Shown here one piece after another: positions 2,694-61,951 of a stretch of 64,000 nt of DNA; within the stretch, counting starts at the first letter, position 1; the number at the start of each line of letters is the position of its first letter. The notes below the pieces were generated by a model that ran no database searches, was not told the origin of the DNA, and saw only the letters and a list, made by a program, of their open reading frames with translations. A program made the translations under genes and the position numbers. Source of the stretch: Acidobacteriota bacterium (GTDB lineage: Bacteria > Acidobacteriota > Terriglobia > Acidiferrales > UBA7541); contig PMTV01000029.1 in assembly GCA_003167215.1 (NCBI GenBank), forward strand, positions 62,001-126,000. Reading direction: 5' to 3'.

Positions 2694-4034
2694 CTACGCA
2701 GTGCCACCCGCTTTTACCGGAGCCCCCGTATCGGCAAGCGAAGCAGATTGCTCCGATTTTCGTACGACGCGCGCTGCTAGTGGCTTAAGCCACAGCAAAG
2801 CCATAAACGCGGCGATCAGGTCGCAGATGATCATCGCCCAGAAGACCTTTGTCCAGGAACCGGTCTTGGCAAAGAGCCAGGCGGCGCCCGGTCCGGCAAA
2901 CGCTGCGGCGACTCCTTTGGCGGTGTACACCATGCCATAGTTGGTAGTGGCCCATTTGTTTCCGTACAGGTCGCCGGTGATGGCGGGAAACAACGAGAAA
3001 ATATTGCCCCATGCGAAGAAACATAGGCCTGACAGAGCAACAAACCAGACAGGACGGTTGATCAGTTGGAGCAGAGCATATACCGCAATTGCCTCGAGGA
3101 CGAAGGCGATGAAGATGGCATTCTCCCGTCCGATATTGTCCGACACCCATCCCCAGAACGGACGCGTCAACCCGTTGAGAAGCCGGTCGACGGTGATCGC
3201 CAGCACCAATGCGGTCATGCCGAAGGCCACCACTACATTATCTACGTGATACGAGGACGCCATGGGGTTGAGTTGTGCGGTCACCACCAAGCCACCGAAA
3301 GCTAGCATGGTCATCATCACGTAAATGATATAGAAGGACGGCTGGCGTAGCACTTGCCACGGCGTCATCTCGATAGCCGAGGTGTTTACTTTGCCTTTGA
3401 TCTTCGCTTGTTTCGCCTTCCAGTTTGGCGGCGTCCATCCGACCGGCGGCCTAGCCAGGAAAAGGGAAGCCGCCAGTACAACGACGCCCTGAACAATTCC
3501 CCAGAAAATGAACGTGTGCTGGTAGCCCGAGCTTTTCAACATGGCGGCAATGGGAGCGATCGTCGTCGCGGTGCCTATGCCGAAAGCTCCGGCAGTCAGG
3601 CCGACGCACAGACCGCGATGGTCCGGGAACCATTTCAGCGCGTTGCCGATGGCGCCGCCGTACACGATCCCAGCGCCGATACCGCCCACGCCATACCAAA
3701 AGTAAAGGCTGCCTATCGTCTCAGCCCTCCCGGCTCCGACCCAGCCCAGCCCCACCAAGACCGCGCCGGCGCCCAGCATGAGTCGGGGTCCGATTCGATC
3801 CACCAGGTATCCTTCAAAGGGTACGAGCCACGTCTCCAGTGCAACAAATAAAGTGAAGGTCCACTGGACGGCGACCAGCGTCACGTGCAGATGCGCTTGT
3901 ATCGGTTTAGTGAAGAGTGTCCATGCGTACTGCAGGTTCGCGATGGCCATCATCGCGATGATGCCGGCGATTAACTGCACCCAACGATTGGGAATACGCG
4001 AAGGGTGAATCAGAGACGTTGGAGACACAGCCAT
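2694..4034 (-). CDS. oxlT: OxlT-type oxalate transporter (MFS oxalate/formate antiporter family)
   Basis: Inner-membrane carrier expected to bring oxalate into the cell. From the ATG at 4034 it has 446 residues; this start is chosen because GGAGGT at 4046-4041 stands six bases before it, too close to the ATG at 4040. It follows Oxalobacter OxlT closely: a helix-1 Q-Y-A-W-T-L motif, G-I-V-Y-G in helix 4, W-F-P-D-x-R-G-L after it, and T-R-P-F-W-G-W-V-S-D in helix 8. The two charged substrate residues of OxlT (Arg272, Lys355) are both present, in T-R-P-F-W and Y-T-A-K-G (residues 291 and 373 from this start). A sigma70 promoter and a 19-bp operator lie upstream. No formate-producing oxalyl-CoA decarboxylase is in the window, so exchange with formate should not be assumed. 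Confidence 0.92.
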   Translation of the reverse strand: MAVSPTSLIHPSRIPNRWVQLIAGIIAMMAIANLQYAWTLFTKPIQAHLHVTLVAVQWTFTLFVALETWLVPFEGYLVDRIGPRLMLGAGAVLVGLGWVGAGRAETIGSLYFWYGVGGIGAGIVYGGAIGNALKWFPDHRGLCVGLTAGAFGIGTATTIAPIAAMLKSSGYQHTFIFWGIVQGVVVLAASLFLARPPVGWTPPNWKAKQAKIKGKVNTSAIEMTPWQVLRQPSFYIIYVMMTMLAFGGLVVTAQLNPMASSYHVDNVVVAFGMTALVLAITVDRLLNGLTRPFWGWVSDNIGRENAIFIAFVLEAIAVYALLQLINRPVWFVALSGLCFFAWGNIFSLFPAITGDLYGNKWATTNYGMVYTAKGVAAAFAGPGAAWLFAKTGSWTKVFWAMIICDLIAAFMALLWLKPLAARVVRKSEQSASLADTGAPVKAGGTA

Positions 4035-4170
4035 AGGCATACCTCCGTGATCGTGCGCTAGACGTTAGCGAAGCACTTCCAGATCCGCTCTTTTCCGCGG
4101 GATTGCGACAGCCCATTCATGCGGCGCCTAAGCTTGGAAATGCCTTCGTTCGTTGGGAACTTTGATACAC

Positions 4171-5228: not shown

Positions 5229-5552
5229 TCAATCTTCCAGGTCTTGCCGAAACACCGGCTGCGACGGATTGAGGCTGCCATCGATTACGCCTACGAGCAT
5301 GTCTGCGTATGCGTTCGTCGCTTCCGGCAAAGTGGAGTAGCCGCGTTCCCGCTGTAACGCTCCAGTGGCCGAGTAGATGAGCGTGAAGTAGCGGCCCGCT
5401 GAATACTGAAGTTCGAGCAACTTGCTCGGCATGTCGGGATCCCCTACTTGTCCCAGCACGTCCATCAGCGCGACCGTCCACTGCACACCCTTTGAATCGG
5501 TGACGACCTCGCGCTCGAGGAACTGCCATTCGTCCATGCTCCACAGCGGCAT
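5229..5552 (-). CDS. Small unknown protein, last gene of the oxalate oxidoreductase operon
   Basis: A soluble 107-residue acidic protein beginning two bases after the response-regulator stop codon, so very likely co-translated with it. It is rich in aromatic residues (E-W-Q-F-L-E-R, G-R-Y-F-T-L-I-Y) and has no cysteine, signal peptide or known motif. Position is the only clue: it is the distal gene of the run that begins at gntR. Its 3' end faces the hypothetical gene ending at 5130, and the 98 bases between show no clear terminator. Confidence 0.6.
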   Translation of the reverse strand: MPLWSMDEWQFLEREVVTDSKGVQWTVALMDVLGQVGDPDMPSKLLELQYSAGRYFTLIYSATGALQRERGYSTLPEATNAYADMLVGVIDGSLNPSQPVFRQDLED

Positions 5553-5554
5553 AT

Positions 5555-5917
5555 TTATTCCAGTAGCTGCCCGAGCGCTCGGGCGACCTGCGACCCGGTG
5601 AACGGTTTCGGAATCAGCGAGACTTTTCGGGCTTTCCGGGAGCGGAGACTTGCGTCAGCTTCCTCTGGAGTGTCAGTAATGATAACGACGGGAAGCTCGG
5701 CGTGATCCTGATGATGACGCACGGCGTCGAAGAGCGACTCGCTCATGTCGAAGGCGGAACAGTCGAGCACGAGCGCGTCGGCTCGTTGCTCTACAACGAG
5801 TTCGTTGACGCTGACGGTATATCCCGCTGCGAAAACTTCGTATCCGGCGTCGCGCAGCGCAAAACTCAGCAGCTCGGCAATCTCCGGCGTGTCGTCGATG
5901 AGCAGGATGCGGCGCAA
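5555..5917 (-). CDS. Single-domain response regulator (CheY-like receiver)
   Basis: A 120-residue receiver domain with no output domain. The acidic pair D-D is at residues 8-9, the phospho-acceptor aspartate is in L-V-L-D-C near residue 52, the conserved Thr is in I-I-T-D-T, and the conserved Lys is in I-P-K-P-F near 104. The start is probably TTG at 5917, seven bases after the preceding stop; no ATG fits. It lies between two unknown genes at the end of the oxidoreductase operon, and no histidine kinase is nearby. It may act by protein contact, or be driven by an unlinked kinase. Confidence 0.8.
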   Translation of the reverse strand: MRRILLIDDTPEIAELLSFALRDAGYEVFAAGYTVSVNELVVEQRADALVLDCSAFDMSESLFDAVRHHQDHAELPVVIITDTPEEADASLRSRKARKVSLIPKPFTGSQVARALGQLLE

Positions 5918-5924
5918 GCGTGCG

Positions 5925-6308
5925 CTACTTCTTGCCGGCGCCGAAGCCAGGCAACCGCTTCTTCTTGCCTTCGCAGGGCTCCAGATCCATCACCCACACT
6001 CGGCCGCCAGCTGTGTAGTAGGCGCGGCGGTCGTTCTCGAACATCGCGCCCCAGGCTTCCAGCGTGCGCATCGCGAACGTGTATCCTTCGAAGTTGTTGC
6101 GCGCGTGGTCCAGCACTTCATTTGTGTGCCAGTTGTCGGTGAGGATAGCGTCACCCGGATGCACGCGCAGCACGGTGTAGTAACGGTCGAACGCGGCTTC
6201 CTCCCGTACCTCGCGCGTGGAGCCGCGCTTTTTGCCTTCGCTGACGATATAACTTTCCTGCGCCTCGGGAGCTGCAGGTGGAGCGGGCACCGTTGCTTTG
6301 GTGTTCAT
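5925..6308 (-). CDS. Small unknown protein translationally coupled to the oxidoreductase beta subunit
   Basis: A 127-residue soluble protein whose ATG overlaps the beta-subunit stop codon (ATGA), which usually marks products made together. The first 20 residues are Ala/Pro-rich, the middle holds many aromatic and charged residues (F-D-R-Y-Y-T-V-L-R-V), and the tail is Lys/Gly-rich. There is one cysteine and no iron-sulfur motif. I do not recognise the family. Coupling suggests an accessory or assembly factor, or a small extra subunit of the oxalate oxidoreductase; this is inference. Confidence 0.65.
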   Translation of the reverse strand: MNTKATVPAPPAAPEAQESYIVSEGKKRGSTREVREEAAFDRYYTVLRVHPGDAILTDNWHTNEVLDHARNNFEGYTFAMRTLEAWGAMFENDRRAYYTAGGRVWVMDLEPCEGKKKRLPGFGAGKK

Positions 6309-7446: not shown

Positions 7447-8655
7447 CTACTCTTCGAATCCGACCCAGTGAGTGCGCTTTTCGATTTTGCCCTGTTTCTG
7501 CGCTTCCATCATTTTTTGCGTCATCCAGTAAAATTCCTTCATCACGATGGCCTCGCCGCCCATTCCGGCCATGAACGAGACTACCAGCGGCCGCTGTTGG
7601 CTTTCGTAGAGAGCCGCGCAGACCTCGGAATACAGCACGCCGCCGCTGCTCACGCTTCCGAGCCCCATGTTGGTCTCGACCACGCCGACCACTTTGAACT
7701 TACTCAGAACTTCCTTCACTCGATCGGTCGGGTATGGCCTGATGGTTCGGAGCCTTACGAGACCGACTTTCAGGCCCTTATCGCGCATATGCTGAATCGC
7801 AAAACGTGCGGTCACCGCGTGCGCGCCTTGCAGGAAAAAAACGACCTCCGCCCCATCGGTCATGAACTCTTCGATCCAGGGATCGTATCGCCGGCCGAAG
7901 ATATTCGCGAACTCGTCGTGGACCTGCTCGATCACCGCCATCGAATCTTCCATGGCGCGCGCGCGCTCCAACTGAAGTGGCGGACCCTGCTCGGGCATGA
8001 TCTGCGGACCGTGCGACACCGGATGCCGCGGATCAAGCGGGTAAGGATGCTTGTACGGCGGCAGGAATTCCTTCACCTGTCCCGAGTCCGGCAATTCGAC
8101 ATCACTCGTAATGTGGGAGACGAAGAAGCCGTCCTGGCAGACCATCTGGGGCAAAAGCACGCGGGGGTCCTCGCCGATGCGGTAGGCCATCAGGTGATTG
8201 TCGAATGCTTCCTGGGCATCGCACGACCAGCCCATGAGCCACCCCATGTCGCGCGTCGAGAGCGCATCGGTGTGCTCGGAACCAAAATCGCCCGGTGGAT
8301 CGAGGGTGCGGTCGGCGATCATCATCTGCACCGGCATACGGCTGCCGGAGATGGGGGAATAAAGTTCGTAGGCAAATTGCACGCCGACGCCCGAACTTCC
8401 GGTGAACACACGCGCGCCGCTGGAAGCCGCGCCGTGCGCGATGCTCAATTGCGAATGTTCGCTATCGGCCACGATGTACTCGGCGTCGAGTTCTCCGTTG
8501 GCCACCATTTGCGCCAGAGCCATCATCGTTGCCGTGTATGGCCGGATGGGGTAGGCCGTGATCACGTCGACATCGGCGTACTTGGCGGCCTGCGCCGCCG
8601 CGACGCAGCCGTTTATCCGAACGGTTCTCTTTTTTACTTCTGTAGCCGTTGGCAT
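7447..8655 (-). CDS. Oxalate oxidoreductase alpha subunit
   Basis: A 402-residue subunit starting at 8655, 14 bases after the flavoprotein stop. Pyruvate enzymes have Y-P-I-T-P in the pyrimidine-binding domain; here it is Y-P-I-R-P (Arg38). A second signature is R-T-L-D-P-P-G-D-F at 116-124. With a constant offset of seven, Arg38, Arg116, Asp119 and Phe124 fall on Arg31, Arg109, Asp112 and Phe117, which I recall as the substrate and switch-loop residues of Moorella oxalate oxidoreductase. The extra positive charges suit a dianionic substrate. Product: two CO2 and two low-potential electrons per oxalate, with no CoA needed. Earlier in-frame codons up to 8844 overlap the previous gene and lack a start context. 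Confidence 0.9.
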   Translation of the reverse strand: MPTATEVKKRTVRINGCVAAAQAAKYADVDVITAYPIRPYTATMMALAQMVANGELDAEYIVADSEHSQLSIAHGAASSGARVFTGSSGVGVQFAYELYSPISGSRMPVQMMIADRTLDPPGDFGSEHTDALSTRDMGWLMGWSCDAQEAFDNHLMAYRIGEDPRVLLPQMVCQDGFFVSHITSDVELPDSGQVKEFLPPYKHPYPLDPRHPVSHGPQIMPEQGPPLQLERARAMEDSMAVIEQVHDEFANIFGRRYDPWIEEFMTDGAEVVFFLQGAHAVTARFAIQHMRDKGLKVGLVRLRTIRPYPTDRVKEVLSKFKVVGVVETNMGLGSVSSGGVLYSEVCAALYESQQRPLVVSFMAGMGGEAIVMKEFYWMTQKMMEAQKQGKIEKRTHWVGFEE

Positions 8656-10512: not shown

Positions 10513-11160
10513 CTACGCCGCCACTGGATTGAGCGGCATGATGTGCAACTCTTCGAGTGCCAATCGGAATGCGTGCTTGTTCGCGATCATCGGCTCGATC
10601 GTGGCCATCTTGACGATGCCGGTTGTCTTCACCACAGCTGCGATGAGTGGAGCGGCGATATCAGGAGCGATCGATTTGTTGCGCTCCGCGGCACCTTCAG
10701 TCGAAAGGCGGTCGAGGCCGAGCTCGCCCAGCCGGTAGTAGAGCCATTTGTGGTCGGCCAGCTTAGCGGCGTCGACACAGACGAGTTGGGCCAGCCGCTC
10801 GGCACCCGGCACGAAACGAATCATGTACTCCGGCGTGTAGTGTGTGTTGATCACCAGCGTTCCGCCCGGAGGCATCCCGCGCATGTAATCCCATCCCTTA
10901 ACCATCGTTCCTTCGACCAGCACGATGATGTTGGGCTGCTCGTTTTCGTAGGTGAGTTCGTTCTCAATAACGCTGTCGCTCACGCGACAGTATTTGCGCG
11001 TTGGGCAATTCGTGCGATCAGGATTGTCGACATAATTCTCCATCGCCTGTGCGAATTTGCCCTCCAGCCGGGCAGAAGCGGCAACGGAATTAACGATGTC
11101 GCGTCCTTCTTTGTCCATGATGATGCCGCGGGTCCAAACAGTAAGTTCCGTGTAGCTCAT
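10513..11160 (-). CDS. Oxalate oxidoreductase gamma subunit
   Basis: A 215-residue protein of the 2-oxoacid:acceptor oxidoreductase gamma family, starting at ATG 11160 behind GAGGT; a TTG at 11166 would sit too close to that ribosome site. It begins Y-T-E-L-T-V-W-T-R-G and contains N-I-I-V-L-V-E-G-T and P-P-G-G-T-L-V-I-N-T, the Rossmann-like pattern of the family. In the protein complex gamma packs against alpha and beta. In Moorella the gamma and delta parts are, as I recall, one chain; here gamma is separate and delta is fused to the flavoprotein. It starts two bases after the AAA ATPase stop. Confidence 0.85.
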   Translation of the reverse strand: MSYTELTVWTRGIIMDKEGRDIVNSVAASARLEGKFAQAMENYVDNPDRTNCPTRKYCRVSDSVIENELTYENEQPNIIVLVEGTMVKGWDYMRGMPPGGTLVINTHYTPEYMIRFVPGAERLAQLVCVDAAKLADHKWLYYRLGELGLDRLSTEGAAERNKSIAPDIAAPLIAAVVKTTGIVKMATIEPMIANKHAFRLALEELHIMPLNPVAA

Positions 11161-11162
11161 GA

Positions 11163-13367
11163 TCAACCTCGTGATTTGGTAGATGCGTCGGGACCCAAAT
11201 CCCCGGCGCTATGGCTTATCGCGTTCGCTGTTTTCATCTGTTTCGGACTGCCCCAATCGGAATTAAGAACGGCCAGAAAATCGCTTCGCAAGACAACGAA
11301 TGGCGCAGCGCGGGTGCCGTCCTGAAATTCCACAATCGCTAATAGCGTTGCCTTCTTGCACAGGCTTTCGATGTCGGCGCCGGTTAGCCCTTCCATCCGC
11401 TCGGCGAATTCATCGAAATCAACATTGGGCGCCAACGGCGCACGCCGGCAGCAAAGCCGCATGATGGCCGCTCGATCGGCAGCGTCTGGTTTCGCGAACT
11501 GAATTTTGTAGTCGAACCGCCCGCTGCGTAGAAGGGCCGGCTCGATCCGCTCGGGACGATTGGTAGCGGCCAGCAGGATCACGCCTTTGACGTCGCGCAA
11601 GTTATCGATCTCACGCAGAAGCTGGCTGAGAATCCTTTGATAGACGTCGGTGCCGAATTGATCGACGCCGAACTTTGGGGCGACTGCGTCGATCGTGTCG
11701 AAGAACAGGATGCAGGGCGCAGCCCGTCTGGCCTTTTTGAAAACTTCCCGCAGCGCCCTCTCGGATTCGCCCAACCACTTGGAGTACAATTGCGGGCCAT
11801 CGATGGCGATCAGCGGCACTTGTTTTTCACCCGAAAGCGCTCGCGCCATGGCAGTCTTCCCGGTACCCGATGGTCCGGCCAACAAAATGCCTCGCGGCGG
11901 CGCCAGTCCAACCTGCTCGTAAATCTCGTCGTGCATGTGAGAATGCTCGACTACGGCATCGAGCAAACGTTTGACCTCGGTAAGACCGCCCAGGGATGCA
12001 AAGGTCGTTGCGCTCTTCTCAATAAAAAATTCGCGAGTCGCGCTGGGCTCTACTTCCTTCAAACCGGCGAGAAAGTCGTCGCGCGTGACCTGCAGCGTCC
12101 CCAGTTCAGCGGATGCCGCGCCGTCGGTCTCGAGTGGATAGGCCGAGAGGAAACCACGCAATGCGATCATGCCGACTTCTTGTCCCAGCGCTTCGAGATC
12201 AGCGCCGACGAAACCGTGAGAATGTTCGGCGATCTCCTTCAGGTCCACGTCCGGCGCGAGAGGCATGGCGCGCGTATGGATCTTTAGGATCTGCAGCCGT
12301 GCTTGAGTATTCGGCACGCCAATTTCGATTTCGCGATCGAAACGGCCGGGACGCCGCAGTGCCGGGTCAAGCACCTCGGGGATGTTGGTCGCACCGATGA
12401 CGATCACTTGGCCGCGTGCGACAAAGCCATCCATTAAGCTCAGGAGCTGGGCCACGACGCGCTTTTCGACCTCGCCGACTACCTCCGTGCGTTTGGGAGC
12501 CACGGCGTCGATCTCGTCGATGAACAGGATTGCCGGCGCGTGGCGTGCCGCTTCCTCGAAGACCTCGCGGAGTTTGGCCTCGCTCTCGCCGTAGAACTTC
12601 CGCATGATCTCGGGGCCGTTTAGGTGAATAAAGTGAACGCGACTTTCAGCGGCTACGGCGCGCGCAAGCAGGGTCTTGCCCGTTCCCGGCGGACCGTACA
12701 GCAACACTCCCTTCGGCGCGAGAATTCCCAAGCGCTCGAAGATACGTGAGTACTTCAGCGGCAGCTCAACGATTTCTCGCACTCGCGCCACTTCACGTTC
12801 CAGGCCGCCGATATCTTCGTAGGACACTGACGGAGCGCGGGCCGCCGTCTGCTCGCCTTCCACCACTCGGAGGTCGGTGCGTTTCCCGATCACGACAGGT
12901 CCGGATGGAATCGTGCGCACCACCTGGAAGTTTACCGCCTTGGCAAATGTCGGCACCCGCACCACACAGCCCGCGATCACCGGAACGCCTACCAGATCCT
13001 GCAGCATCCGATCGGGTGCGATGGTTGCCGGCGCAGCTCCTACCCACAACGGCGACAAGCGCACGGCCACCGCCTGCTCGTGCTCGATCGGCGATACCGT
13101 CACCTGTTCCTGCAGGCCCGCGCTGCAATTGCTGCGGCACGTGCCGTCTATCTGAATCATGCCTTCGAAGCCTTCGTCCGAAAGCTCGGCGCGCCCCACG
13201 CCAGTCATGCCGCCGGTGATCTTCAGCACGTCGCCTGCCCGCGCACCCATGCGCAGCAGGTCGGCCGGTGCCAGTCGCGCAATCGCGTGGCCGACGTCTT
13301 CGACCCGCGCCTCCGCAACCCGCAGCGTAAGCGTTCCCGTCATCGATGAATGGGCAGTTTCCGTCAT
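11163..13367 (-). CDS. CDC48/p97-like double AAA+ ATPase with altered D2 Walker B
   Basis: A 734-residue VAT/CDC48-type unfoldase: N-terminal double-psi-barrel and adaptor-like domain (about 10-170), then two AAA modules. D1 has Walker A G-P-P-G-T-G-K-T (225-232), Walker B L-F-I-D-E-I-D (281-287) and arginine fingers in R-R-P-G-R-F-D (338-344). D2 has Walker A G-P-S-G-T-G-K-T (498-505), but its Walker B reads F-F-D-T-I-D (555-560), with Thr in place of the catalytic Glu. D2 should bind ATP and hydrolyse it poorly or not at all. The start at 13367 precedes the N-domain; upstream in-frame codons overlap gntR. Its place directly before the gamma gene suggests a dedicated remodelling or assembly factor for the oxidoreductase. 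Confidence 0.88.
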   Translation of the reverse strand: MTETAHSSMTGTLTLRVAEARVEDVGHAIARLAPADLLRMGARAGDVLKITGGMTGVGRAELSDEGFEGMIQIDGTCRSNCSAGLQEQVTVSPIEHEQAVAVRLSPLWVGAAPATIAPDRMLQDLVGVPVIAGCVVRVPTFAKAVNFQVVRTIPSGPVVIGKRTDLRVVEGEQTAARAPSVSYEDIGGLEREVARVREIVELPLKYSRIFERLGILAPKGVLLYGPPGTGKTLLARAVAAESRVHFIHLNGPEIMRKFYGESEAKLREVFEEAARHAPAILFIDEIDAVAPKRTEVVGEVEKRVVAQLLSLMDGFVARGQVIVIGATNIPEVLDPALRRPGRFDREIEIGVPNTQARLQILKIHTRAMPLAPDVDLKEIAEHSHGFVGADLEALGQEVGMIALRGFLSAYPLETDGAASAELGTLQVTRDDFLAGLKEVEPSATREFFIEKSATTFASLGGLTEVKRLLDAVVEHSHMHDEIYEQVGLAPPRGILLAGPSGTGKTAMARALSGEKQVPLIAIDGPQLYSKWLGESERALREVFKKARRAAPCILFFDTIDAVAPKFGVDQFGTDVYQRILSQLLREIDNLRDVKGVILLAATNRPERIEPALLRSGRFDYKIQFAKPDAADRAAIMRLCCRRAPLAPNVDFDEFAERMEGLTGADIESLCKKATLLAIVEFQDGTRAAPFVVLRSDFLAVLNSDWGSPKQMKTANAISHSAGDLGPDASTKSRG

Positions 13368-13407
13368 GACGTCACATTCGACCTGCTGGGATGAAACTCT
13401 CCGTTGA

Positions 13408-14127
13408 TCAAAACTTTGTATTGAGTACGATCTCTTCCACGTCTTCAATGTGCCGCCGCATCGCGGCCTTTGCCGCTTCCGCATCGTGTCGCTTGATGGC
13501 AGCCAGGATCCGCCGGTGGCCGGCGAGCGACTTTTGCGCGCGTCCTTCCACCTGCAAAGAGTGTTCGCGCGTGTCGCGCAGCAGGTCCATCAGGGTGTCG
13601 ATCACCTTCAGAACGACACTGTTACCGGATGCCAGAGCAATGCCGTAGTGGAAATCCGCGTCCTCGGCGATGGCCGCCTCTCCCTGGCTCTGCGTTTTCT
13701 CCTGCCTTTGGAGAATCTCTTCCATCTCGGAAATTTCTTCGGCGGTAGCGTTGGCGGCTGCTCGCGCGGCCAGCGGCGGTTCGATCATCTTGCGGAAATC
13801 CAGAAGCTCGGTCACTAGACCCTGCCGGCGCTTCAGCGCATTGGCAAAAGGATTGGCGGATGACTCGGTCGTTCGTTCGCGAACGATTGTCCCGGTGCCT
13901 TGGCGCGGTTCAACCAGGCCCACCAGTTCCAGGCCCCGAATCGCGTCTCGAATGGAACTGCGGCTTACCTGAAGAATCTCCGCCAGCTCGCGTTCCGAGG
14001 GCAGTTTATCTCCGGGTTTCAATTTTTTAAGAATCAGGCGTTCGATCTGCTTGGCGACTTCTTCGTAGACTTTGTTTCTTCGGATAACCTCGAAGTCGGG
14101 TTTGACGGATTTGACGGGTGCGGGCAT
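13408..14127 (-). CDS. FadR-type GntR transcriptional regulator (FCD domain)
   Basis: A 239-residue regulator starting at ATG 14127. The winged helix (about 18-85) contains the GntR signature P-G-D-K-L-P-S-E-R-E-L-A and V-S-R-S-S-I-R-D-A-I-R. The C-terminal FCD ligand domain (about 110-235) has the D/H metal set, including D-x-x-F-H-Y-G-I-A and two later histidines (G-H-R-R-I-L, M-R-R-H-I-E). FCD proteins usually sense small carboxylates, so oxalate, glyoxylate or a related acid is a fair guess. It is the first gene of the run leading to the oxidoreductase, and a 19-bp dyad sits eight bases upstream of its ATG, so it probably controls itself. The gap to the AAA gene is 40 bases. Confidence 0.88.
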   Translation of the reverse strand: MPAPVKSVKPDFEVIRRNKVYEEVAKQIERLILKKLKPGDKLPSERELAEILQVSRSSIRDAIRGLELVGLVEPRQGTGTIVRERTTESSANPFANALKRRQGLVTELLDFRKMIEPPLAARAAANATAEEISEMEEILQRQEKTQSQGEAAIAEDADFHYGIALASGNSVVLKVIDTLMDLLRDTREHSLQVEGRAQKSLAGHRRILAAIKRHDAEAAKAAMRRHIEDVEEIVLNTKF

Positions 14128-14134
14128 GGGCAAG

Positions 14135-14153
14135 TGGTCTGGTAAGCGGACCA
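14135..14153. promoter_or_regulatory. 19-bp operator, site B (gntR/oxidoreductase operon)
   Basis: On the plus strand this reads TGGTCTGGTAAGCGGACCA. It shares 15 of 19 positions with site C and 13 of 19 with site A, and has the same TGGT-N11-ACCA spacing. It lies between the predicted start site (about 14159) and the gntR ATG at 14127, so a bound protein would hinder both transcription and use of the short leader. Confidence 0.75.
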
Positions 14154-14165
14154 GCTCACAAATGG

Positions 14166-14195
14166 AGTATACCCCCGCTGTCAAGAGCCTAGCAA
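14166..14195 (-). promoter_or_regulatory. gntR operon promoter
   Basis: Reading towards gntR, TTGCTA (14195-14190) and TATACT (14171-14166) are 18 bp apart. An alternative -35, TTGACA at 14184-14179, has only a poor -10 at the right distance. With TATACT, transcription would start near 14159, placing operator B at about +7 to +25, the same geometry as at oxlT. Confidence 0.5.
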
Positions 14196-14299
14196 ATATT
14201 TTTATCGGGCGAATCCAAAAAGAAATGGATCTGGCCCGGAAACCGCCGCGGTAACAATTGCCCGGGTGCGCGGCCCAAGGTGCGTCTCGCAGGCACCGC

Positions 14300-15283
14300 T
14301 CACTTCGGCGGTTGGGCCATCGCACTCTGCGCCAATAACTTCGTGCAGTTGTACACTGTTCGCGTGTAAGGCATAGGAAGACCCACTCTCTCTCCCAACT
14401 CCACTACTGCGCCCACCAGCGCCTCCAGTTCCATCGGCCGGCCCGCTTCGAGGTCCTGCAACATGGAGGTTCTGTGCTCCCCCACTTTTTCTGCGCCCGC
14501 CATTCGCTGATCGATGGAAACCGGCAACTCCATTCCCAACTTGCTGGAGACCGCTTCCACTTCCTGCATGATGGTGCGTATCAGCGAGGAAACCCCCGGA
14601 TCGCGCACCATCTGAATCAGCGTGGCTCGCGTGAGTGCGCTGACCGGATTCAACGAAGCGTTTCCCAAAACCTTTACCCATATTTCGTGGCGGATCCGGG
14701 TGCTGACCGGGCATCGTAGGCCGGAGGCGATGAGCGCCTCTGCAATTCGTCGGCAGCGTTCGGAGCGCGCGCCGTCCGGCTCGCCGAGAGAAATGCGATT
14801 ACCCTCGATATGTTGAACCACCCCGGGTGAGGAAATCTCGGTAGAAAAGTAAACGATGGATCCTACGACCATACGCGCCTCGATGGCCGAGGAAATTATG
14901 CCACCGGGATCGATCCGCTCCAGGCGCAATCCTTCCAAATCGCCGCCGAACCCCTGGAAGTACCACCAGGGTATTCCGTTTTGTGTGCTGACAACTGTAG
15001 TCTCCGGCCCTAGCACCGGCCTCAACTGCGGCGCAAGTTGCGGCAGGCCGTGTGCCTTCACTCCAAGAAAGACAACGTCCACCGGCCCTACTTCCTCGAG
15101 GGAACCGGCGATTTTCGGCCGCGCGATAAAATCTCCCTCGCTGCTTCTTACTTGCACGCCATGCTCTTGCATAGCACGAAGATGAGGGCCGCGCGCGAAG
15201 AGCGTGACATCGAACCCGGCATGCGCCATGCGCGCACCGATGTAGGCTCCTATCGCGCCCGCTCCCGCGATCAGGAATCTCAT
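14300..15283 (-). CDS. PanE/ApbA-family reductase, probable oxalyl-CoA reductase
   Basis: A 327-residue NAD(P)H-dependent reductase. The Rossmann motif G-A-G-A-I-G is at 7-12 and the family catalytic lysine is in I-W-V-K-V-L-G-N (Lys204, followed by Asn208 and Asn212). By family it would be called 2-dehydropantoate 2-reductase. Its ATG overlaps the stop of the oxalate-CoA ligase (ATGA), with malate synthase upstream, and in Methylobacterium extorquens the oxalyl-CoA reductase was found to be a PanE paralogue (PanE2). I therefore infer reduction of oxalyl-CoA to glyoxylate. No other pantothenate gene is near. A true ketopantoate reductase remains possible. Confidence 0.78.
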   Translation of the reverse strand: MRFLIAGAGAIGAYIGARMAHAGFDVTLFARGPHLRAMQEHGVQVRSSEGDFIARPKIAGSLEEVGPVDVVFLGVKAHGLPQLAPQLRPVLGPETTVVSTQNGIPWWYFQGFGGDLEGLRLERIDPGGIISSAIEARMVVGSIVYFSTEISSPGVVQHIEGNRISLGEPDGARSERCRRIAEALIASGLRCPVSTRIRHEIWVKVLGNASLNPVSALTRATLIQMVRDPGVSSLIRTIMQEVEAVSSKLGMELPVSIDQRMAGAEKVGEHRTSMLQDLEAGRPMELEALVGAVVELGERVGLPMPYTRTVYNCTKLLAQSAMAQPPK

Positions 15284-16791
15284 AGTTCGTCATCCCCGAG
15301 CGCGGCGGCTACGGCGCGTCGGCGAATTTTTCCAGTCGCGGTGGTGGGGATAGTCTTTACGAGATAAATCTTCTTAGGACATTTGTATTCCGCCAGCAAC
15401 TCGCGGCAGTGCCTGATGAGTTCCGATTCGGTGGCGTCGTGTGCTTCGTGCAATACCACCGCGGCGGCTACTTCTTCACCCAACGTAGGATGCACGCAGC
15501 CAAACGTGACCGCTGCCGCGACGGCAGAATGCCGCAGCAAAATCTCGTCGACTTCGTGAGGTGCGATATTCTCTCCACCGCGGATGATGATGTCTTTGAT
15601 CCTGCCGGTCAAATGCAAATAGCAATCCTCATCGAGCATTCCTTCGTCGCCGGTAAGAAACCATCCATTCACGAAAGCGCGAGCGTTGGCGTCCGGATTG
15701 TTTTCATATCCCCGAAATACGTTGGCTCCCTGAATGGCGACTTCGCCGCGCTGGTTGGTGCCGAGATCGTTGCCCTCCTTATTCATGATGCGGATGCGAA
15801 GCCCGGTGCCCACACCGACAGAACCTGCCTTCCGATGTCGCGGAGGTAAAGGATTCGAGGTCATCTGGTGGGCGGCCTCCGTCATTCCGTAGGCTTCGAC
15901 AAACGGCACTCCGAACAGACTTTCGATCTTCTGAATGAGCGCCGACGACATGGGAGCGCTGCACGAACGGATGAAGCGCAGCGAGGCAGCTTCTACGGGT
16001 TTCTGGTGAGTACGTGCCAGCAGAAGCTGATGCATCGTGGGCACCCCCGAATACCAGGTCACGCGATGTTCCCGAACCGTGCGCCAGAAAGAAAGCGCGT
16101 TGAATTTGGTGGGAACAACGACGGTCCCTCCGGAAAGCAAAGTTGCCATGAGTGAGGCAATCAACCCGTGAACGTGGAACAGCGGCATGATGCACAGCGA
16201 AACATCCTCCTCTGAAAGCGCGTATGTGTTCGCGATATTCGCTGACGAGACCGCGAGATTGAAATGCCGCAAGGGAACGCGCTTCGGCCGCCCAGTGCTT
16301 CCGCTGGTGTGCAGGATCAGAGCAATATCGTCAGCCGTGGGCGCGCTTGCGGAAACACCGGTGGGAGCACCCGCGAGCTGAACGTCGCCCTGGTCGCTCA
16401 TTTCCACCGAGAACACCGGAATCTTGCGGTCCGCAGCCGCGCTGCGCGCGAATTGTGCGCCTGCCGGCGGGCAAAGCAAAATCCGCGCATTCGTATCCCC
16501 GAGAAAGAAATGGAACTCTTCGTAGGGATACGCCAGGTTCAACGGAGCTGCGATCCCAGCGATGGAGGCAGCCAGGAAGCTGACGATTGCAGGCAATCCG
16601 TTCGGCAATGCGATGGCTACAGCATCGCCACGGCGAATGCCGGCGGCGGCCAAAGCGTTGGCCATGGCCAAGACCTGTTGCCGGAGCGAATCGTAGGTGA
16701 CTCGGATTCCAAGCTCGGGAACGATCACTGCAGTGTGGCTGTCAGCAAATTGTAAGACGTCAAGAAGGGTGTCTACCGACTTCAGTGTCAT
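15280..16791 (-). CDS. Oxalate-CoA ligase (AAE3/Pcs60-type acyl-CoA synthetase)
   Basis: An adenylate-forming enzyme of 503 residues that should convert oxalate, ATP and CoA to oxalyl-CoA. The AMP loop T-S-G-S-T-G-R-P-K is at 162-170, and the C-terminal catalytic lysine is in T-A-T-G-K-I-R-R (Lys488). It follows plant AAE3 and yeast Pcs60 in I-M-P-L-F-H-V-H-G-L (201-210), W-Y-S-G-V-P-T-M-H-Q (246-255), F-I-R-S-C-S-A-P (273-280) and Y-G-M-T-E-A-A-H-Q-M followed by S-N-P-L-P. These are the stretches that mark oxalate ligases among acyl-CoA synthetases. It is translationally coupled to the PanE-type reductase. No oxalyl-CoA decarboxylase is in the window. Confidence 0.85.
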   Translation of the reverse strand: MTLKSVDTLLDVLQFADSHTAVIVPELGIRVTYDSLRQQVLAMANALAAAGIRRGDAVAIALPNGLPAIVSFLAASIAGIAAPLNLAYPYEEFHFFLGDTNARILLCPPAGAQFARSAAADRKIPVFSVEMSDQGDVQLAGAPTGVSASAPTADDIALILHTSGSTGRPKRVPLRHFNLAVSSANIANTYALSEEDVSLCIMPLFHVHGLIASLMATLLSGGTVVVPTKFNALSFWRTVREHRVTWYSGVPTMHQLLLARTHQKPVEAASLRFIRSCSAPMSSALIQKIESLFGVPFVEAYGMTEAAHQMTSNPLPPRHRKAGSVGVGTGLRIRIMNKEGNDLGTNQRGEVAIQGANVFRGYENNPDANARAFVNGWFLTGDEGMLDEDCYLHLTGRIKDIIIRGGENIAPHEVDEILLRHSAVAAAVTFGCVHPTLGEEVAAAVVLHEAHDATESELIRHCRELLAEYKCPKKIYLVKTIPTTATGKIRRRAVAAALGDDEL

Positions 16792-16885: not shown

Positions 16886-18430
16886 CTAGATCGGCGAGTG
16901 CTGTCCCTTCACGATCAGTTCCTCCGCGATGCGGCGTGCTTCGGGCAGTGTCGCTGCCGCTTGGCCGTCGATCTCGGCCGGCAAATCGAGTTGCATTTTC
17001 GCCAGCTCCTCGTCAAACAAACGGGTCACCAAAGTGGGGGTGTGTTCGAGCGTCTTGCCGTCGTCGGCGGGCACTTTCACTTGGTGCCGCACGCGCTGTG
17101 CGATCATCAGGCGATAGATGCGATCGGTAGCCAGGTCTTCCATGTACCCATCGAGCAGGCTGGCTCCTTTTCCGTTGAGCACTCCGTTGCGATAACGAAT
17201 CACCGTGCGCACGGCCGCTCGCGTTCCGGCAAGTGTTATAGCTCCCACTCCCCTTGGGATTGGCCGCAGGTCCGGATGGGAGTTCGGCAACTTGGGAAGT
17301 TTTGCAATCTGATTGGGATATGGGAACTGCGCGACAGCGATCTCGTTCTGATCCGGGTGGCCGGTCCACGCCCCATCCATCAGGCAGTCGGCTTCATTCT
17401 TCTTGTCTTGCTTCAGGACCTTCAGAGCGCGCTCGTTCAACTCCGCATCCGTGCGGCTGGGATAGAGTGCGGTCATTCCGCCGATGGCGTGAACTCCGTG
17501 CTTGTGGCAGATTTCCGGCATCAGTGTGCGGAAGTTCTGGAAGAATGCCACGTCGTGCGGGATGGTATTGCGGTCCGGCAGAATCCAGTTGGGATCCTCG
17601 ATCATGAAATCGATCAGCGAGGCCATGTAATCCCAGCGGCCGAGGTTCAATCCCAGGCAGTGATCGCGCAGATTGAAAAGAAATTCCTCCATCTGATAAG
17701 CCAGCGGGTGCGCCTCCACGAGTGCCATGCACTTTATGTAATCCTTAGGCAGCCCTTTGGATTTGGCAAAGGTCTCGAAGAGATCGCGCCACCACAAAGC
17801 CTCTTCGGCAGACTCGCTCTTGGGGATATACACGCAGAAGTTGTGCGGCAACCTTGCCGGATCGATCTGATACCAGATTAGCGCCAGATCGAACAGGGAT
17901 GCGGACATGATCTCGTTCTTAATAACCCCGCCCTGGCTGACGTGCAGCCCGCGGGGGCGCACCCAAGTCACAGTTTTTGAGTGCTGCACTGTGACTTTCT
18001 TGCCTCGCTTCTGGTCCTCGTAGCTAAGTTCATACTTGTAAGCGGCAATCGTGTTTCTGACCGCCAACAGGACGTTCTCCCAGACGTTGGCCGTGGAATC
18101 TTCCAGGTCGATCATAACGGCGGGTGATCCGGAGTTCAGCAGTTTTACCGTCAACGCTCCGTCATCGGCCGGCCCGGTCATTTGATTGCGCTGATCCGCG
18201 CACCAGTCGGGTACTTCGATCCGCCAATCAGAAGTGGTTGCCTCCGAAGGCGGCAAATAGTTCGGCGGATTTCCGCGATGAGACGCTTGCAACACTTCCG
18301 CACGTTTGGAGATGAGTTTCTGTTGCCAAGGCGTGAATTGCTTGTGCAGCGGCAACAGGAAATCAAAGAAGCCCTCGGGGAGGTCCTTCTGGGGATTCAA
18401 GTCAGTTGGCGCGTAATTCATGTATTGCAT
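16886..18430 (-). CDS. aceB: Malate synthase (type A)
   Basis: Condenses glyoxylate with acetyl-CoA to malate; 514 residues. Catalytic features: R-P-R-G at 158-161, a Mg-binding acid in V-E-A-H-P near 239, G-L-N-L-G-R-W-D-Y at 260-268, and the catalytic aspartate in M-D-G-A-W-T-G-H-P-D (Asp352). Start ATG at 18430 or 18421; neither has a clear ribosome site. It lies 94 bases upstream of the oxalate-CoA ligase on the same strand, while isocitrate lyase is 42 kb away under another regulator. The context therefore ties this copy to glyoxylate made from oxalate, though it can serve the glyoxylate shunt too. Confidence 0.92.
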   Translation of the reverse strand: MQYMNYAPTDLNPQKDLPEGFFDFLLPLHKQFTPWQQKLISKRAEVLQASHRGNPPNYLPPSEATTSDWRIEVPDWCADQRNQMTGPADDGALTVKLLNSGSPAVMIDLEDSTANVWENVLLAVRNTIAAYKYELSYEDQKRGKKVTVQHSKTVTWVRPRGLHVSQGGVIKNEIMSASLFDLALIWYQIDPARLPHNFCVYIPKSESAEEALWWRDLFETFAKSKGLPKDYIKCMALVEAHPLAYQMEEFLFNLRDHCLGLNLGRWDYMASLIDFMIEDPNWILPDRNTIPHDVAFFQNFRTLMPEICHKHGVHAIGGMTALYPSRTDAELNERALKVLKQDKKNEADCLMDGAWTGHPDQNEIAVAQFPYPNQIAKLPKLPNSHPDLRPIPRGVGAITLAGTRAAVRTVIRYRNGVLNGKGASLLDGYMEDLATDRIYRLMIAQRVRHQVKVPADDGKTLEHTPTLVTRLFDEELAKMQLDLPAEIDGQAAATLPEARRIAEELIVKGQHSPI

Positions 18431-60544: not shown

Positions 60545-61951
60545 ATGGCCAGCAACGGAACATCTTCGAACGGCAATTCCTCAAACCACGGTATGGACTG
60601 GGAAACGAATCCCCGCTGGAAGGGCGTCACTCGCCCTTATCCTGTCGCAGACGTCGAAAAATTGCGCGGGTCGGTTCATGTCGAGCACACCCTGGCAAAG
60701 CTGGGCGCTGAGCGACTGTGGAAATTGCTGCACGAAGAAGAGTACGTTCCGGCATTAGGCGCCATGACGGGCAATCAAGCTGTCCAACAGGTGAAGGCCG
60801 GCCTGAAGGCGATTTATGTGAGCGGCTGGCAGGTTGCCGCCGATGCCAATGACTCCGGGCAAATGTACCCGGATCAAAGTCTCTACCCCGCCAACAGCGT
60901 CCCAAGTCTTGTGCGTCGAATTAATCAAGCGCTCACGCGCGCGGACCAAGTTCACCACGCCGAAGCGAAGGACGACACCTACTGGTTCGCTCCCATGATT
61001 GCAGACGCCGAAGCTGGCTTTGGCGGCAACCTGAACGCGTTTGAGCTGATGAAGGCCATGATCGAAGCGGGCGCGGCATGCGTCCATTTTGAAGACCAAT
61101 TGTCTTCTGCCAAGAAATGCGGCCATCTGGCGGGAAAAGTTCTGGTGCCAACGATTGAGGCCATTCACAAATTAGTTGCTGCGCGGCTGGCGGCGGACGT
61201 GATGGGCGTTCCCACGTTGCTCATGGCGCGCACCGACGCCGATAGCGCCACGCTTCTTACCAGCGACATCGACCCGCGCGACCGTGAATTCATTACCGGC
61301 GAACGTACTGCCGAAGGATTCTTCCGCATTCGCGGCGGCACTGACTCCGCCATTGCCCGCGGCCTGGCCTATGCCCCGTACGTGGATTTGCTCTGGTGCG
61401 AGACTTCCAAGCCGGATCTAGCGGAGGCACGGAAGTTTGCGGAAGGGATTCACGCAAAGTACCCGGACAAAATGCTGGCTTATAATTGTTCGCCTTCGTT
61501 CAATTGGAAGAAGAATCTCGACGACGCCACCATCGCTCGATTCCAGCGCGAACTCGCATCGATGGGCTACAAATTCCAATTCATCACCCTGGCCGGTTTC
61601 CATGCGCTCAACCTGACCATGTTCGATCTCGCCCGCACCTATAAACAGAGCGGCATGACCGCCTACTGCGAGCTGCAAGAAAAGGAATTCGATTCAGAGC
61701 GGAACCACGACTACGAAGCCGTGAAACATCAGCGCTTCGTCGGCACCGGATATTTCGACGCGGTCCAGCAGGTGATTACCAGCGGTACCGCTTCCACCAC
61801 CGCGCTCGAAGGATCCACTGAGTCAGCTCAATTCGATCATTCGAAGCCGGCCGCGCCCGCAAACGAATCGAAGTCTGCGCAAGCGCCAAAACCCACGGAG
61901 CGCCGCGTGCCGGCTATGGCGGCAAAATCGGCTAGCACCGCTGCCGACTAG
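60545..61951 (+). CDS. aceA: Isocitrate lyase
   Basis: Splits isocitrate to glyoxylate and succinate; 468 residues. The active-site signature K-K-C-G-H is at 190-194, with Cys192 as catalytic base. It is followed by N-C-S-P-S-F-N-W and [11 protein letters not shown] in the C-terminal half. The last 50 residues are an Ala/Lys/Pro-rich tail absent from E. coli AceA. GAGAGG precedes the ATG. Malate synthase is not beside it but in the oxalate locus, so the glyoxylate shunt is split between two regulators. Confidence 0.95.

Follow-up and report, generated by a model that had tools for sequence, protein, structure and literature searches.

We predict that the 64,000-nucleotide stretch of acidobacterial DNA analysed here (hereafter the window) encodes an oxalate oxidoreductase (OOR) that carries its own NAD(P)+ arm and lies within an operon for oxalate import and assimilation. 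Taken as a whole, this reading explains the gene content best, and we place its probability at roughly 0.75. Its centre is the alpha subunit, which we strongly predict to belong to the OOR clade, as part of a variant complex encoded in an unusual operon (Table 1). Homology, active-site residues, phylogeny and gene order all point to oxalate as the substrate, an assignment that is very probably correct.

Table 1. Genes of the predicted oxalate cluster, with positions in the window and the main evidence for each.
Feature	Position	Strand	Evidence
OxlT-like oxalate/formate MFS antiporter	2694..4040	-	TIGR04259, 476.6 bits (cut-off 335)
Conserved 107-aa protein	5229..5552	-	homologues in acidobacterial OOR loci
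Single-domain response-regulator receiver protein, conserved in the locus	5555..5917	-	PF00072, 6.1e-10
Conserved 127-aa protein downstream of beta	5925..6308	-	homologues in acidobacterial OOR loci
OOR beta subunit, 354 aa	6305..7369	-	5c4i_C, E 3.1e-115; 57% identity with Moorella stamsii beta
OOR alpha subunit (TPP/substrate half-site), 402 aa	7447..8655	-	58% to 5c4i_A; NF045791; tree
GltD-like FAD/NAD(P) module fused to delta 2[4Fe-4S] ferredoxin, 610 aa	8670..10502	-	PRK12771, 509.6 bits
OOR gamma subunit, separate protein	10513..11160	-	NF045790 match, 173.6 bits (cut-off 230 not reached)
Cdc48-type double AAA+ ATPase	11163..13484	-	TIGR01243, 756 bits
GntR/FCD family regulator	13408..14325	-	PF00392, PF07729
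PanE-like reductase, predicted oxalyl-CoA reductase	14300..15283	-	NF005089, 421 bits
AMP-forming ligase, predicted oxalate-CoA ligase	15280..16791	-	solved relatives 6qjz, 5ie0
Malate synthase-like protein	16886..18430	-	TIGR01344, 319 bits (below cut-off 594.5); 3cux, 1.9e-68

The alpha subunit and its active site

The alpha reading frame starts with ATG, and its product aligns with the alpha chain of Moorella OOR (5c4i_A, E 1.1e-153) without a gap across 389 residues. At an offset of +7, 224 of these 389 residues are identical, against 10% identity at the next best offset within a range of +/-60. The first-pass annotation had proposed that Arg38, Arg116, Asp119 and Phe124 map by one constant shift of seven onto Arg31, Arg109, Asp112 and Phe117 of the Moorella enzyme. 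The shift is exact: R31, R109, D112, D116 and F117 of 5c4i_A correspond to R38, R116, D119, D123 and F124 of the window protein, every one at +7. The same annotation held that four such matches are unlikely to arise by chance. The likeness is indeed far beyond chance, but the four matches are not independent events, because the whole protein aligns gaplessly at this offset.

The NCBIfam equivalog model for OOR alpha, NF045791, gives 592.5 bits and is passed (cut-off 500), whereas the best pyruvate model reaches 339 bits against a cut-off of 550. An AlphaFold2 model of the subunit (pLDDT 88) has 5c4i as its top fold match (TM 0.92, E 2.8e-52), followed by the pyruvate enzyme of Methanosarcina acetivorans, 9bt4, with which the fold alignment yields 32% identity. 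Phylogeny had been suggested as a check on the assignment: in a maximum-likelihood tree of alpha sequences (76 rows, LG+C20+F+G4, some long branches being flagged elsewhere in the tree) the window protein and Moorella OOR share one clade with support 100/100, and the pyruvate enzymes fall outside it. Identity to 5c4i_A, family cut-off, clade and best fold match all bear out the earlier identification of the subunit as OOR alpha.

The motifs of the substrate site are Y35-P-I-R38-P and D115-R116-T-L-D119-P-P-G-D123-F124. We compared them in a residue table of 106 alpha sequences. Of these, 76 belong to the OOR clade (74 loci together with the window and Moorella), and R38, R116, D119, D123 and F124 are invariant among them. 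The 28 rows of pyruvate or other 2-oxoacid:ferredoxin oxidoreductases (OFORs) all have Thr at position 38, in agreement with the earlier remark that YPIRP here replaces YPITP, and D119 and F124 are absent from all 28. R38, D119, D123 and F124 are OOR-specific in this table. In the Moorella enzyme, the YPIRP motif is unique owing to Arg31, which together with Asp116, the 'bait' residue, takes part in a 'bait and switch' with the plug loop (PMC5020499). R116, in turn, is kept in 28 of 28 OFOR rows, and its counterpart Arg109 has been described as the solely conserved residue (PMC5020499); it is therefore a general carboxylate-binding arginine and not a marker of oxalate. As a marker R116 is ruled out by its presence in every OFOR row, and it drops from the list of oxalate-specific residues given at first pass, in which R38, D119 and F124 stand. 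D123, the counterpart of the bait Asp116, was missing from that list and belongs on it.

A second type of OFOR with a YPIRPY motif occurs in two of the loci, L016 (3813-7333) and L013 (2694-6206), and in eight of 89 genomes of the family (L123-L130). Its loop reads NRALDDPGAFG: Ala occupies the site of the bait Asp, and where OOR has Pro120 there is a new Asp. The cassette consists of a fused gamma-delta, alpha and beta, mostly with GntR and OxlT-like genes beside it, and its alpha subunit is sister to the OOR clade with support 100/99.

Complex architecture and electron outlet

The beta subunit scores 444 bits against NF045792, below the strict cut-off of 590, and conserves all four [4Fe-4S] ligands, C41, C44, C69 and C241 corresponding to Moorella C24, C27, C52 and C225. 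Gamma starts with ATG at 11160, within a longer reading frame that begins with TTG at 11166. Its match to the 316-aa gamma-delta model NF045790 is confined to positions 13-210, and its score stays below the cut-off because the ferredoxin fused to gamma is part of that model. Delta makes up the C-terminal part of the protein encoded between gamma and alpha, in which Pyr_redox_2 and Fer4_20 domains are found and residues 516-575 match OOR delta.

The Moorella thermoacetica enzyme (5c4i, 5exd, 5exe) resembles that of the window in alpha, in beta, in the substrate-loop residues and in the Fe-S ligands. It differs in having gamma and delta in one protein of roughly 316 aa, without the GltD-like flavin module; the window cluster has no fused gamma-delta of about this size, gamma being split off and delta sitting on the module. 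Given this variant architecture, what we claim is a variant complex built around an OOR core. Of 35 Acidobacteriota-type loci, 34 encode the GltD-ferredoxin fusion between gamma and alpha, against 0 of 35 other OOR loci; in non-acidobacterial loci its place is taken by the fused gamma-delta (checked in L082). The split gamma and the delta-GltD fusion in 34 of these 35 loci thus suggest NAD(P)+ as the probable electron outlet, and we consider it a likely acceptor on the strength of the fused reductase arm.

Which of the two nucleotides is used can be judged from one motif. GGGNTA is retained in all 46 flavoprotein rows that were inspected, and it is followed by V-T-[ML]-I-T-[VI]-E in the acidobacterial OOR rows (VTMITVE and two minor variants) and by YRR in two more distant relatives. 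Arginines that bind NADP are known in the GltD-like flavoprotein family, and VTMITVE in place of YRR at the dinucleotide site argues for NAD+. By this motif and this analogy, a preference for NAD+ over NADP+ is slightly favoured.

A coupling of this kind would have a parallel in PadEFGHI, the NADH-dependent phenylglyoxylate dehydrogenase, in which an additional subunit links the 2-oxoacid oxidoreductase core to NAD. The core is shared with the window enzyme, whose alpha and beta match that family distantly. The substrate is different, and window alpha is not a member of that family, with 257 bits against the PadG alpha model and its cut-off of 700.

The predicted oxalate cluster around the enzyme

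The genes for a ligase, a PanE-like reductase and a malate synthase-like protein are present in the window cluster in addition to what is known from Moorella. The top three solved relatives of the ligase, 6qjz (2.3e-122), 5ie0 (7e-122) and 8aff, are oxalate-CoA ligases or oxalyl-CoA synthetases, and we predict an oxalate-CoA ligase of the AAE3/Pcs60 type. The PanE-like reductase is 48% identical to a homologue in Methylobacterium bullatum that adjoins homologues of the ligase and of OxlT, all three being grouped in that organism by tblastn; homologues of PanE and the ligase are also adjacent on a Rhodobacteraceae plasmid. In M. extorquens, which assimilates oxalate with a PanE-like reductase as would the host of the window, PanE2 has been characterised as an oxalyl-CoA reductase (PMC8411744). 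That bacterium also has the oxalyl-CoA decarboxylase MeOXC (PMC8411744). By contrast, a profile search found no match to Oxc or Frc in the genome to which the window belongs (95.7% complete), each model scoring above its cut-off in one control genome. We reject the canonical Oxc/Frc route for this genome on these grounds, and energy would come from OOR instead.

From this gene content we predict an assimilation branch running from the ligase through the PanE-like reductase to the malate synthase-like protein, and we hold it to be probable. The branch is optional, since only 9 of the 21 acidobacterial loci that have enough flanking sequence carry the ligase/PanE pair near OOR. The malate synthase-like gene is found near OOR in fewer acidobacterial loci than the pair. 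An isocitrate lyase-like gene lies on the plus strand at 60596-61822, 42 kb from the oxalate cluster, and a second malate synthase-like gene on another contig (G000:C64) brings the copies in the genome to two. Considering these two genes, the malate synthase-like protein of the cluster may partly serve the glyoxylate shunt.

Several smaller genes accompany the enzyme. The regulator is conserved in its domain part (about 240 aa), and its gene recurs beside OOR loci. The 127-aa protein encoded downstream of beta recurs in nearly every acidobacterial OOR locus that has room for it; it has no Pfam match, and its structural model (pLDDT 70) gives a best PDB match of E 0.23, which is meaningless. 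No Pfam match was found for the 107-aa protein either.

Outside the Acidobacteriota, the gene for the Cdc48-type ATPase adjoins OOR, directly upstream of gamma, in 26 of the 27 loci that offer enough sequence; they come from Bacillota (Moorella among them), Thermodesulfobacteriota and Synergistota. Relatives of the Moorella system have a Cdc48-type and a GntR gene beside OOR, as in the window. Among acidobacterial loci the ATPase gene stands beside OOR in 21 of 29. Within the family it is present in nine of 12 OOR-positive genomes and in one of 77 OOR-negative ones (n=89, at least 79% identity; Fisher p 3e-9, a value that overstates independence as the genomes are related). Homology starts near 13367 in the reading frame. 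The D1 motifs are intact; in D2, Thr takes the place of the Walker B Glu, both in the window and in many relatives. The protein could be a dedicated assembly, activation or repair factor of OOR, an idea that we put forward tentatively.

Proposed mechanism and alternatives

We propose that oxalate is imported by the OxlT-like antiporter and attacked by TPP at the alpha-beta interface, where R38 and R116 would hold its two carboxylates. Arg38 and the Asp123/Phe124 loop would bind the second carboxylate, as do Arg31 and Asp116/Phe117 in Moorella. Two decarboxylation steps would then yield two CO2 and two electrons, and the electrons would pass from the beta cluster to the ferredoxin clusters of delta, on to the FAD of the GltD-like module and finally to NAD(P)+, probably NAD+, so that its reduction replaces the release of electrons as reduced ferredoxin. 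A share of the oxalate would be turned by the ligase into oxalyl-CoA, by the PanE-like reductase into glyoxylate and, together with acetyl-CoA, by the malate synthase-like protein into malate. The Cdc48-type AAA+ protein may help to assemble or repair OOR.

Could the enzyme be an ordinary pyruvate or other 2-oxoacid:ferredoxin oxidoreductase in which an arginine has arisen by chance in the YPITP motif? It belongs to the same superfamily, and the pyruvate:ferredoxin oxidoreductases 9bt4, 6cin (Moorella) and 1b0p (Desulfovibrio) have in common with it the fold, the TPP chemistry, R116 and the Fe-S site of beta; the NTG motif of beta and all Fe-S ligands are likewise common to pyruvate enzymes. 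These enzymes, however, have Thr at the R38 site and lack D119, D123 and F124, and the difference at positions 38, 119 and 124 holds for the full set of 28 non-OOR rows. The residue table and the tree, with its fully supported OOR clade, rule out a pyruvate-enzyme reading of alpha, and the oxalate genes around the enzyme also speak against an ordinary OFOR, which we regard as extremely improbable. A related small acid such as glyoxylate, mesoxalate or oxamate could be imagined as the substrate, since the altered loop of the sister YPIRP clade indicates that the active site can diverge. The entire Moorella loop is, however, unchanged in the window enzyme, which is moreover adjoined by homologues of an oxalate transporter and an oxalate ligase, making such a substrate very improbable.

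The electron outlet leaves somewhat more room for doubt. A true OOR might still reduce soluble ferredoxin, the GltD-like module having a second function such as bifurcation or reverse electron flow driven by NAD(P)H. PRK12771/GltD relatives do belong to multi-subunit redox enzymes such as Nfn, and the intact 2[4Fe-4S] domain could meet an external ferredoxin. On the other hand, nearly all acidobacterial loci encode the module as a fusion with delta, placed between the gamma and alpha genes. The oxidation of oxalate with NAD(P)+ is, in addition, very exergonic, so that no bifurcation is required. We therefore consider a ferredoxin-reducing enzyme unlikely, and continue with an OOR that would deliver its electrons to NAD(P)+.

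Host, distribution and significance

Biochemical knowledge of OOR comes from the anaerobe Moorella. Our literature search, with most subscription papers outside its reach, found no report of OOR in Acidobacteriota. The close homologues (88-98%) come from metagenome-assembled genomes (MAGs) of Acidobacteriota from soil, peat and groundwater, and from one MAG labelled Myxococcales. The latter (L053) carries an OOR cluster of the acidobacterial type, most of its genes being 74-90% identical, which reflects either transfer or mis-binning. Among Acidobacteriota labelled gp1, gp2 and gp6 (L011-L048, L081, L088, L090) OOR alpha is 88-95% identical, and transfer within the phylum or strong constraint may account for this likeness. 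The window also encodes an outer-membrane beta-barrel protein of 1137 aa with a carboxypeptidase regulatory-like domain (PF25183, PF13620; 31311-34724).

The genome of the host (3.78 Mb) has four strong matches to heme-copper oxidases, and aerobic respiration is therefore likely. The cluster suggests an oxygen-respiring oxalate eater that uses a route not described before. Whether the whole picture holds is not quite an even bet: oxygen-respiring soil Acidobacteriota would combine an NAD+-linked OOR for energy with the ligase, PanE-like reductase and malate synthase for carbon, amounting to complete oxalotrophy without Oxc and Frc, and the Cdc48-type AAA+ protein would be a dedicated partner of OOR across phyla.

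An enzyme closely related to the Moorella OOR, with what we predict to be a built-in flavin/NAD(P) arm, is widespread in Acidobacteriota of soil and peat. How OOR is assembled and how it chooses its substrate are questions on which two features bear, the Cdc48-type gene conserved next to it and the sister YPIRP clade that lacks the bait Asp. Oxalate is a major exudate of plants and fungi. If our reading is true, abundant uncultured soil bacteria may drain it by a route that is invisible to surveys of oxc and frc genes.
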